Assembly: GCA_036940085.1 (NCBI GenBank)
Contig: JALLBK010001219.1
Span: 1-13,157 of the forward strand
Direction: 5' to 3'
DNA length: 13,157 bases
Origin: Discostella pseudostelligera
Lineage: Eukaryota; Bacillariophyta; Thalassiosirophyceae; Thalassiosirales; Thalassiosiraceae
The notes beneath the pieces are model-generated. The model made no database searches. It was not told the DNA's origin and saw nothing but the letters and a program-made list of their open reading frames with translations. Of the stretch, positions 5,116 to 12,342 are shown one piece after another. The translations under genes were made by a program, and so were the position numbers. Every line of letters begins with the position of its first letter. The first letter of the stretch is position 1.

Positions 5116-7803
5116 TTACAGTCCTTTCCTATACCAAAAGAACGGAGAGCGTTCTCCAAAGCCGATCAACCTGCGATCCCTTCCCTTCCGCATACGCACT
5201 TGACCGGCAATGATTCCTAATTCACCACCACCTTTTGACGCATTATTGCTGCCACCGACATTTCCATCACATGCGATCATCACCTCGTCCCAGCACGACA
5301 TAATATCGGCCAACTGATGGATGAGAATCCAGTCAAAAGTTGACTCTACAGACTGATTGACAAATTTATCCAAGTCTTGATTGACATGATATTCGATACG
5401 ATGCAAGGTCGCATCGAAGAGAGGTGGTAAAGTTTTAGTATTGCTGTTGGAACTCTGTTGCAAGGACGATACGCTCCCATGTTCCTCTGCCCAGGACGAC
5501 GGCATTCCCACGGAGCCATCTTCGTTCTGAAGCGACCAGACGGGTGGATCGGCGGGGTAGTTCTGCATGTCAACAGTAACGGTTGCTTTCAACGTCGACG
5601 ACTTTCTTTTGATGATGGCAATGTAAGTCTTTCGTGTCGTTCCTGCTGCCCTTTGGTTGCCGTCCTTCGAGTCCTCTGTCCATGAATGCAATTTCACCTT
5701 GGCCGACTGAGACTGACTTGCAGTACTATCCTCTACTTTCATCGCAGGGTGGATGGGAATTGGTAACGGATGCAATGAACTGCGTTTTCCAAGGTAGTCA
5801 AGGATGGACGCGAGTGTCTTACGAGCACGAATACGTCGAGTTAGTTGTCGGAATACCGCCTTGGTGCACGTTTGGATCTGAAAAGGCGCATCGTTTGCCT
5901 CCCCTCCGGAATCTGCCTTGTCGTTACTGTTTGCTGCCGACATTGGTGGCGGAAAGTCGAGTCCGCTTAGCACTTGACACCAGTAATAGGGCTTTCCAAA
6001 CTTCCAAATACTCGTGTTGCTATTGGTTCCATCCTTCTCATCTTGATTATCTCCCCCAGTAGAAATACTGTGATCTCGTCCCTCGTCACCCCCCTCCTCG
6101 TCTAGCAACGACAATGCGACATTCGGGTTGGATAATCCGTCATCGCCAGGAAACAAATTATCCAAGAGTTCGCCATTCATTTCCCCATCTCCCTCTGCTG
6201 CATGTACCAGCACCACGCCCAGATTATCATTGAAGGAGAATACAATTTTGATTGCCCCCGCACTACTCGACGAACGAGAAGTTGAATAGGACTTGCCCAA
6301 AATTGACGATACCTCGGGTGGAAGAATATCCGCGGGAGAGAGTGTCAAAACAACACTCCACTTGTCATCACCGTCGTCACCCGTCTCATTCGGAACCACC
6401 GAAACATTCATCCCATTTGCACCCACTAACCCATCGAGGACATTGTTGGACTGTAATCCCCCCAATTTGTCCAATGTTGCCCACGCATCAATGTATCCCA
6501 TAAGCTGCACAAATAGAACATAGAGCGGTGATGGTAAATTCGATTGTGCCATTTGAAATCGTTTCGTACGATCAGACGATGCCCGATGGACTAGTAGATT
6601 GGCAGCCTGGACCTGTTTCTTCTCGTTGGATTTCTTGGCATCATTGTCGGATACTGCTACATCCATCATCGCCTCGTCAGTGTCATCTTTAAGAACTTCA
6701 TCATTCTTTCCTTCGTTGCTCACCAACACATCCTTCCAAACAGCACTATTTCCAAAAAAAATATTCAAACTCTCCCCGGCCTTCTCCAACTCCATCACTT
6801 TCTTGGGTATCATATTCAAAAATCCACGTAAATTATCACGCTTCTTTTGCAATTCCCGCAATTCTAACTTTGATTTGGATAATTGTTCCACGAGAGATGC
6901 CCGTGCTTCCAGATCAGATTGGATTTTTTGGAGAATAAATTGATGTTGGGATGGATCTCGATGAGAAGATGCAATGGCAGAGGGTGATGATGATGATGAT
7001 GATGACGATGATGGTTCAGAGCTAGTATTTCCAAAAAGGTAGGCATCAATAGCCTCTTCGGCAGTGGTAATCTTGGTAGGAGTCTTTGATGATACCTCAT
7101 CAACTTCCATCCCATCACCCCCGCNATCACCCCCACCTCTTTGTCCACCCCTGGAAATGGTACCACCTCTTCCAATCCCCAACTCACTCCATGCCATCTT
7201 CTCCAAGTCCTCCGGTTTCCAACTACTCAAATCCATAATTTCATGCTGTAAATACTGTCGTTCATACATTAAATTTTCCAGTAATAAACTATATTGTTCC
7301 ACACGGTCTCTCCGACTTTTGGAAATGGTGGCATGTTCTTCCACTTGGAGGGCTAATCGACGTTGGAGAGATTTTAGATTGGAGAGGGCGAGTGATGAGG
7401 TTAGTAGATGCTCGTTGTACTGTGGATCATCAGTCATGACATTATTGTTGCTGTTGTCGCTAGTGGTAGTCGCCTTGAGGGCAAGCTGGGCAATATTGTC
7501 CTGTAGGGTCTTGAGTGTTGATCGGTGCATATCAAATAATTTGGCGGTGAGAATGCCATGCTGATGAAAGTCGTTCTCGGGGACGGAATTATTCGGCTGA
7601 GGTATGTCAGAGGCAGATGTGGACATGGCAGGATCTGCATTCGATGGAGGCGGAGGTGGTACGACTATTGCGGCGTTGGCGGCATTGGCATCATCGTTGG
7701 CAGCAGTCATGGCCACGTCGGCAGTATCATCGGAGCCAACGTCAAAATTACTTTCGGCAGCGGCCTTGGCTGCCGCAACGCGACGTTTCTTTGCTGGTGG
7801 CAT
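5116..7803 (-). CDS. THOC5: THO complex subunit 5 (THOC5/Fmip family)
   Basis: The product is a component of the nuclear THO/TREX complex, which packages nascent mRNA and couples transcription to export. The single open frame is 895 aa without introns, longer than the animal protein (near 680 aa, from memory) because of low-complexity inserts. It opens with a nuclear-localisation-like MPPAKKRRVAAAK. Family blocks in order: coiled coil at about 135-195 with YSLLLENLMYERQYLQHEI; second coiled coil at about 290-350 ending in LRGFLNMIPKKVMEL; PLYVLFVQLMGYIDAW at 426-441; PYYWCQVLSGLDFPPP at 605-620; and a C-terminal helical region (KAVFRQLTRRIRARKTL, then DLDKFVNQSVEST). A Ser tract (about 264-273) is encoded by a TGA/TCA microsatellite near 6985-7013. 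An undetermined base at 7125 makes residue 227 ambiguous in a Gly-rich stretch. The gene diverges from the AP endonuclease across 377 bp. Confidence 0.87.
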   Translation of the reverse strand: MPPAKKRRVAAAKAAAESNFDVGSDDTADVAMTAANDDANAANAAIVVPPPPPSNADPAMSTSASDIPQPNNSVPENDFHQHGILTAKLFDMHRSTLKTLQDNIAQLALKATTTSDNSNNNVMTDDPQYNEHLLTSSLALSNLKSLQRRLALQVEEHATISKSRRDRVEQYSLLLENLMYERQYLQHEIMDLSSWKPEDLEKMAWSELGIGRGGTISRGGQRGGGDXGGDGMEVDEVSSKTPTKITTAEEAIDAYLFGNTSSEPSSSSSSSSSPSAIASSHRDPSQHQFILQKIQSDLEARASLVEQLSKSKLELRELQKKRDNLRGFLNMIPKKVMELEKAGESLNIFFGNSAVWKDVLVSNEGKNDEVLKDDTDEAMMDVAVSDNDAKKSNEKKQVQAANLLVHRASSDRTKRFQMAQSNLPSPLYVLFVQLMGYIDAWATLDKLGGLQSNNVLDGLVGANGMNVSVVPNETGDDGDDKWSVVLTLSPADILPPEVSSILGKSYSTSRSSSSAGAIKIVFSFNDNLGVVLVHAAEGDGEMNGELLDNLFPGDDGLSNPNVALSLLDEEGGDEGRDHSISTGGDNQDEKDGTNSNTSIWKFGKPYYWCQVLSGLDFPPPMSAANSNDKADSGGEANDAPFQIQTCTKAVFRQLTRRIRARKTLASILDYLGKRSSLHPLPIPIHPAMKVEDSTASQSQSAKVKLHSWTEDSKDGNQRAAGTTRKTYIAIIKRKSSTLKATVTVDMQNYPADPPVWSLQNEDGSVGMPSSWAEEHGSVSSLQQSSNSNTKTLPPLFDATLHRIEYHVNQDLDKFVNQSVESTFDWILIHQLADIMSCWDEVMIACDGNVGGSNNASKGGGELGIIAGQVRMRKGRDRRLIGFGERSPFFWYRKGL

Positions 7804-11996: not shown

Positions 11997-12053
11997 TTCC
12001 ACCTATTTTTGCTAATTTCATATGCTTTATGCCGTCCCTGTTTCAATGTAGAC

Positions 12054-12131
12054 ATCAGGAGATTCCGGGTTCGAATCCCGGGCGGGTTTCTCTCTGACCC
12101 GTTGGCCCAACGGTAAGGCGCCTGACTACGG
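12054..12131 (+). tRNA. circularly permuted tRNA-Arg(ACG) gene
   Basis: The 3' half comes first (12054-12088, positions 38-72), then six or seven bases (CTCTCT, with T12089 as possible discriminator), then the 5' half (12096-12131, positions 1-37). Reordered, they give a full cloverleaf. Acceptor GACCCGT pairs with GCGGGTT over all 7 bp (two G-U). The D stem is GCC/GGC. Anticodon stem CCTGA pairs with TCAGG around loop CTACGGA (anticodon ACG, 12128-12130). T stem CCGGG/CCCGG surrounds TTCGAAT. Box B (GGTTCGAATCC, 12068-12078) precedes box A (TGGCCCAACGG, 12103-12113), opposite to a normal gene. Leader bases GTAG (12048-12051) pair with loop bases CTAC (12126-12129), leaving a 3-nt bulge ACA at the 3' cut site, as tRNA splicing endonuclease needs. 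The outer helix of a full bulge-helix-bulge is not seen. U73 and G1-U72 are unusual for Arg. Confidence 0.85.
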
Positions 12132-12147
12132 ATCTCTCAACTGACAA

Positions 12148-12158
12148 TTTTGCCTTTT
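12148..12158 (+). terminator. Pol III terminator of the permuted tRNA
   Basis: Two T4 runs (12148-12151 and 12155-12158) begin 17 bases after the 5' half. They would end a Pol III transcript that includes both halves and a short trailer. Confidence 0.5.
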
Positions 12159-12260
12159 GCCTCTCTTACATCCGTTTTCACTTTGCCCATTAAAATATTT
12201 TGACCACTGCCGGCAAACCAGCCAACCACAAACGGTTCGAAAGAGAAAATGCAATGGAGT

Positions 12261-12270: not shown

Positions 12271-12342
12271 GGCTCACTCCGGGGATCGAACCCGGGACCT
12301 CCTGCACCCGAAGCAGGAATCATACCTCTAGACCAAGTGGGC
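12271..12342 (-). tRNA. tRNA-Pro(CGG)
   Basis: This is a 72-nt linear tRNA without intron. Anticodon stem CCTGC/GCAGG closes loop TTCGGGT, giving anticodon CGG (12310-12308), and G37 follows as usual for Pro. T stem CCGGG/CCCGG surrounds TTCGATC, and the discriminator is C73, usual for eukaryotic tRNA-Pro. The sequence around TTGGTCTAGAGGTATGATTC is close to known eukaryotic tRNA-Pro. The acceptor stem GCCCACT/AGTGAGC has one mismatch, C3 against A70. The gene converges on the permuted tRNA-Arg. Confidence 0.93.

Follow-up and report, generated by a model that had tools for sequence, protein, structure and literature searches.

A putative permuted tRNA-Arg(ACG) gene on a nuclear contig of the diatom Discostella pseudostelligera

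A locus on the forward strand of the window (the whole 13,157-nt stretch of DNA that was analysed, contig C913 of a genome assembly of 23,041,147 bases in 963 contigs) is very probably a nuclear type II (37/38) permuted gene for cytosolic tRNA-Arg(ACG), transcribed and spliced via a circle. The available sequence tests mark the locus as a true permuted tRNA gene of type II, most likely a functional one. The two halves of the tRNA stand in swapped order and form a near-complete cloverleaf with a bulge-helix-bulge core and a terminator; tRNA-intron endonuclease and ligase domains are encoded in the genome, and no ordinary copy of the gene was detected.

The sequence-only reading had taken the DNA for that of a probable diatom genome, and the neighbouring genes agree with this. 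The neighbouring phosphoribulokinase (PF00485) was 75-94% identical in 119 of the 120 matches listed and 59% identical in the other one. The named matches included Skeletonema potamos (89%), Thalassiosira profunda (87%), Cyclotella atomus (86%), Detonula (87%), and Stephanocyclus; according to a taxonomy look-up, Skeletonema, Thalassiosira, Cyclotella, and Detonula belong to the Thalassiosirales (Bacillariophyta). Other window ORFs matched THOC5, the exonuclease/endonuclease/phosphatase family, and an amino-acid permease (Pfam), and three of the seven window ORFs scanned had no Pfam family. On the diatom-type phosphoribulokinase and these other ORFs, the assignment to a nuclear diatom contig is well supported. 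One undetermined base is present at window position 7125, inside the THOC5-like ORF. Exact patterns of the locus had 0 matches in viral contigs and in prokaryote contigs; the phosphoribulokinase search confirmed no locus in the viral contigs and 70 loci, mostly cyanobacterial, in the prokaryote contigs. An ordinary tRNA-Pro(CGG) gene is located at window positions 12271-12342 (-), tail to tail with the permuted gene and with 139 bases between them.

Gene order, cloverleaf, and bulge-helix-bulge

The 3' half of the tRNA (positions 38-73; 12054-12089, +) was read from the sequence upstream of the 5' half (positions 1-37; 12096-12131, +), with a 6-nt linker, CTCTCT (12090-12095, +), between them. 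Joined at 37/38, the halves give tRNA-Arg(ACG), with the anticodon ACG within the 5' half at 12128-12130 (+). The 3' half begins at A38 (12054) and continues with TCAGG (39-43), the variable region AGATT, the T arm CCGGG/TTCGAAT/CCCGG, GCGGGTT (66-72), and T73 (12089). The 5' half begins at G1 (12096) and consists of GACCCGT (1-7), TG, the D arm, CCTGA (27-31; 12121-12125), and CTACGG (32-37), ending at 12131. The joined 72-mer reads GACCCGT TG GCCC AACGGTAA GGC G CCTGA CTACGG up to the join and A TCAGG AGATT CCGGG TTCGAAT CCCGG GCGGGTT T after it. The T-loop GGTTCGAATCC (12068-12078, +), found as a T-arm anchor place, is taken here to be box B from its consensus, and it stands upstream of TGGCCCAACGG (12103-12113, +), presumably box A by the same token. 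An upstream T-arm half and a cloverleaf with a 7-bp acceptor stem, a 5-bp anticodon stem, and a 5-bp T stem after joining at 37/38 had been proposed from the letters, as had reversed boxes B and A; the order of the halves and the stems were borne out by the pair check and by a full-length covariance model match (62.8 bits, described below).

Twenty of the 21 cloverleaf pairs of the joined tRNA are standard. The anticodon stem and the T stem have five standard pairs each, and the acceptor stem has seven pairs (five Watson-Crick, G1.U72, and U7.G66); G1.U72 is also found in the Arg(TCG) and Arg(CCG) of this genome. The D stem has three standard pairs (10:25 to 12:23), the fourth pair of the model, 13:22, being the non-standard C.A; D stems with only three pairs also occur in several ordinary tRNAs of this genome. 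U8, R15:Y48, G18G19, U33, and TTC at 54-56 were read from the joined sequence. ARAGORN was blind to the gene in genomic order and called the joined sequence tRNA-Arg(acg), a call that includes one extra pair made with artificial poly-A padding.

The leader GTAG (-6 to -3; 12048-12051, +) is complementary to CTAC (32-35; 12126-12129, +), the anticodon-loop strand of the central 4-bp helix, and all four pairs are Watson-Crick; G36:U-7 could add a fifth. With the cut before A38, this is a 3-4-3 bulge-helix-bulge core (hBHB form), in which the 3-nt bulges, read from sequence and pairs, are AC/A across the 3' cut site before A38 (12052-12054, +) and GG/A across the 5' cut site after G37 (12130-12132, +). 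An outer h' helix was not evident from the same reading. The chance of a GTAG complement in a fixed register is about 1/256 (our estimate, assuming equal bases). The pair C32:G(-3) and the CTAC:GTAG helix pointed out from the sequence are both present, and C32:G(-3) is shared with the intron of an ordinary tRNA-Tyr(GTA) gene (L039/L067, C329:1603-1692), which has a 17-nt intron at 37/38 and is the sole intron-bearing tRNA gene among the 43 typed. That intron pairs alike at three positions, C32:G(-3), U33:A(-4), and 34:-5, and is unpaired at the next two. ATC is present at both outer ends (12054-12056 and 12132-12134), so the join is not fixed within a few bases by sequence alone; the 37/38 position would instead be set by the bulge-helix-bulge geometry, on which our assignment rests.

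Folding predictions count against the permuted-gene reading: for the free precursor, the minimum free energy structure (-33.1 kcal/mol) differs from the cloverleaf, which with the splice helix reaches -31.3 kcal/mol, and the anticodon-stem pairs have a probability of about 0.07. The precursor was no more stable than shuffled sequences (z -0.74; 43 of 200 shuffles were at least as stable).

Transcription, processing, and ordinary copies

The first downstream T4 run begins 16 bases past G37, within TTTTGCCTTTTGCC (12148-12161, +), which by its T4 and TTTTGC content resembles the Pol III terminators of the ordinary tRNA genes of this genome. T4 occurred within 30 bases of 42 of the 43 ordinary tRNA genes at offsets of 0-14, against a background of about 11% in 34 bases, and TTTTGC occurred within 40 bases of 19 of the 43 (background 1.8%). 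No T4 was found from 12048 to 12131, linker included. By eye, the leader is AT-rich, and no clear TATA box was seen upstream of the gene.

Because the halves are in swapped order, the RNA would need circularising and recutting before use. RNA polymerase III would produce a transcript of leader, 3' half, CTCTCT linker, 5' half, and trailer, stopping at TTTTGCCTTTTGCC, and this transcript would fold into a cloverleaf with its open ends in the anticodon loop, where the leader GTAG and CTAC 32-35 would form the bulge-helix-bulge. The splicing endonuclease would then cut off leader and trailer, a ligase (the RtcB type is encoded) would close the RNA into a circle by linking G37 with A38, after which RNase P and tRNase Z would excise the linker and CCA would be added. 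For transcription, circularisation, and end processing, we infer this route from red and green algae. On C524, a profile search located the tRNA-intron endonuclease domain PF01974 (58 bits), and an RtcB ligase was found on C340 in three pieces (best 290.3 bits). A search of the genome for a Trl1-type ligase domain, run with no positive control, found none. A tRNA-Asn(GTT) gene precedes the RtcB matches on C340, which start about 1.5 kb downstream of it.

It had been held from the sequence that a full set of ordinary tRNA-Arg(ACG) genes would count towards a rearranged pseudogene. No such gene was detected with Rfam, ARAGORN, BLAST, or a 14-mer search in the 23-Mb assembly, which itself apparently lacks other essential tRNAs. 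The Rfam tRNA search, in which 63 of 691 candidates were scored, listed 43 ordinary tRNAs, and ARAGORN typing of these 43 gave Arg TCG, CCG, and TCT, with ACG absent. The T-arm 14-mer of the permuted gene was unique in the 23,041,147 bases, and when the joined tRNA was compared with the whole genome by BLAST, only the two halves came back, each once; a search of this kind with an Arg(TCT) query picked up an 85% identical Arg isoacceptor. The Rfam list is incomplete, as an ordinary Pro(AGG) gene was missed and was recovered by BLAST with the genome's own tRNAs. Rfam, ARAGORN, the D-arm anchor, and BLAST yielded no Lys, Cys, or Trp tRNA gene, and queries with the Lys, Trp, and Cys tRNAs of plants and yeast matched only three known ordinary genes; the assembly or the searches are therefore incomplete for tRNAs. 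Since other essential tRNA families and Pro(AGG) were missed, the failure to find an ordinary Arg(ACG) carries moderate weight, and the searches directed at Arg(ACG), by 14-mer and joined tRNA, are stronger than the general tRNA list. Contig C105 opens with a truncated Asp(GTC) copy.

The anticodon ACG of tRNA-Arg is read as ICG after editing, and CGT, CGC, and CGA are the codons read by ICG. These made up 63 of the 83 Arg codons in three window ORFs, and the organism should therefore need tRNA-Arg(ICG), for which the permuted gene is possibly the sole gene.

It is improbable that the locus is a rearranged tRNA pseudogene, that is, a permuted remnant that has ceased to be expressed as tRNA while an ordinary tRNA-Arg(ACG) gene lies in a genome region missing from the assembly. 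The missing Lys, Cys, and Trp genes, a sign of incomplete assembly or searches, would leave room for such a copy, and both U73, where the three other typed Arg tRNAs have A73, and the predicted fold of the free precursor, which is not tRNA-like, would suit a gene out of use. A dead copy would, however, be expected to lose some of what is kept here, namely an intact 4-bp splice helix, a terminator in place, and a unit without T4; just one cloverleaf pair in 21 is non-standard (13:22), in a stem that also has three pairs in several ordinary tRNAs of this genome, and the 14-mer search and BLAST of the genome detected no ordinary copy.

Covariance model searches and other candidates

A covariance model, R1, was trained on 35 ordinary tRNA sequences, chosen from the 40 distinct ones that were typed in this genome and each rearranged artificially into permuted order at 37/38 with N linkers; the gene in the window, Tyr (intron), the odd Glu of locus L043, and three near-duplicates were left out. 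R1 spanned 12054-12131 end to end with 62.8 bits and an E value of 2.4e-23, a rough figure for the window. Among 67 other genome loci (154,838 bases) used as a control, the top scores were 48.9 and 40.2 bits, followed by scores of up to 31.1 bits, which fell on ordinary tRNA halves. Over 22 further loci, the best score was 19.5 bits, besides the tRNA-Pro of the window itself (21.1 bits).

The two top control scores were tandem pairs of ordinary genes, Gly-TCC on C493 (48.9 bits) and Glu at the end of contig C104 (40.2 bits). A tandem duplication can therefore mimic permutation in the R1 search, and tandem copies need excluding at any R1 match. At the window locus, such mimicry was tested with half matches, BLAST, and the R1 controls, and none was seen. 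No second, normal-order copy of either half was found in the window, where the next-best ungapped matches were 21/36 and 23/36 bases, the latter within the ordinary tRNA-Pro; this and the BLAST result agree with the sequence-only reading that neither half has a partner in the normal direction.

The same tandem genes are what might make an assembly artefact conceivable, in which a tandem ordinary array was collapsed or mis-joined to leave just a 3' half with a 5' half behind it, and the assembly is in 963 contigs. After a collapse, the true outer flanks would be kept, starting at G1 and ending at T73, but here other sequence abuts A38 and G37, and a collapse would not yield a leader complementary to the anticodon loop; an artefact of this kind is very unlikely. 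The idea that two unrelated tRNA fragments lie side by side by chance, or that the locus is a repeat derived from a tRNA, deserves hardly any credence: loose base-pair counting is unspecific and gives permuted-looking matches near ordinary tRNAs, some with an equal number of pairs, but the halves found here make up a single isoacceptor whose acceptor and anticodon stems match, each half occurs once in the genome by BLAST, and the R1 E value is about 1e-23 (rough).

Searches for further permuted genes were made with anchors. The T-arm anchor GGTTCGANYCC had 74 places, of which 49 were read (30 loci, 15 places at ordinary genes, the C188 repeat, and 3 small stretches), and no second permuted gene was seen among these 49. 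The D-arm anchor TAGCTCAGTNG had 22 places; 10 were at listed ordinary tRNAs, and the other 12 were neither tRNAs by ARAGORN nor permuted by R1. The anticodon-arm pattern CTGNCTACGNANCAG, when as many as 2 mismatches were allowed, had 1181 places versus 2197 for the reversed control and was hence uninformative; none of the 8 loci and 2 small stretches checked among the 100 places listed was a tRNA. The C104 Glu match was rejected as a second permuted gene, since two ordinary genes lie there in tandem and are truncated where the contig ends; at this locus (L043, C104:46450-46811), the first Glu tRNA gene has a broken acceptor stem, and the second is cut off.

A locus on C188 (L056, 30327-30436) has repeated tRNA-like pieces (TTAGCTCTATTGGTTAGAG... 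and CCTGGGTTCGAATCCAG), in which a D-arm-like unit flanks a T-arm-like unit on both sides, with an inverted copy as well. It scored 19.5 bits with R1, neither ARAGORN nor Rfam identified it as a tRNA, and it is perhaps organelle-derived.

YrlA is a Y RNA-like sRNA that carries a tRNA-like module. The Rfam YrlA model was the only Rfam match over the permuted locus and was rejected there as sub-threshold (22.7 bits versus a gathering threshold of 69). Its genome scan (46 of 411 candidates scored) gave three sub-threshold places: the permuted locus, the ordinary Arg-TCG gene on C437, and the C188 repeat; the model also gives sub-threshold matches in 13 of 14 control genomes. The best genome match, window positions 12057-12126 (+), is sub-threshold and falls on the permuted tRNA, which suggests a similar order of elements.

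Comparison with known permuted tRNA genes

A 2014 review tabulates 34 permuted tRNA genes with linkers of 1-74 nt from a red alga, four green algae of Ostreococcus and Micromonas, a chlorarachniophyte nucleomorph, and Thermofilum (PMC3978253). The list of known cases given in the sequence-only reading (Cyanidioschyzon, prasinophyte algae, a chlorarachniophyte nucleomorph, and Thermofilum) stood as far as it went and needed two additions, the Amorphochlora nucleomorph (PMC4494063) and Auxenochlorella (PMC12636532). The review gives 37/38 as the join found most often in the green algae and in the nucleomorph, and it describes algal processing as splicing into a circle, next probably cleavage by RNase P and tRNase Z, and last CCA addition (PMC3978253).

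The type II genes of Cyanidioschyzon merolae, Ostreococcus, and Micromonas have the same half order, 37/38 join, and bulge-helix-bulge as the diatom gene, and its 6-nt linker is within the 1-74 range tabulated there (PMC3978253). As described in that source, C. merolae genes have a T-run downstream and none between the halves, as in the diatom gene, and most have a TATA-like element within 50 bp upstream, which is not evident at the diatom gene (PMC3978253). Unlike the genes of that table, the diatom gene has a stramenopile host, and Arg(ACG) is absent among the 34 listed (PMC3978253).

The permuted tRNA-Ser genes of chlorarachniophyte nucleomorphs are like the diatom gene in their type II join, their short linkers (5 nt), and their secondary-plastid host, and they sit in a green-algal relict nucleus (PMC3978253, PMC4494063). 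In contrast, the contig of the diatom gene carries diatom-type phosphoribulokinase, THOC5-like, and exo/endonuclease/phosphatase genes. Auxenochlorella UTEX 250-A has reversed halves as well, in a green alga, and its permuted genes were noticed because an ordinary tRNA search gave an incomplete set (PMC12636532). Thermofilum pendens also has reversed halves at a bulge-helix-bulge type site and differs in being archaeal and in having a 59/60 join, an encoded CCA, and a further intron at 37/38 in each gene (PMC3978253).

A literature search, made outside subscription papers and supplements, found no permuted tRNA in diatoms or stramenopiles, in line with the earlier statement that no diatom example is established. 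Within the literature searched, the lineage and the isoacceptor are new, and the kind of gene is already known. Whether tRNA-Arg(ICG) comes from the permuted gene alone here, perhaps in relatives as well, and stramenopile permutation arose or persisted independently of that in red and green algae, is in our judgement an even call. If it is the sole source, CGU, CGC, and CGA are translated only by way of a circular RNA intermediate.

So far, permuted tRNA genes have been described in few lineages. The diatom case would add the stramenopiles and would concern a tRNA serving the majority of Arg codons in the genes examined. Ordinary annotation may under-count such genes, as ARAGORN missed this locus. 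Culturable, transformable diatoms would permit direct tests of whether the permuted form matters.
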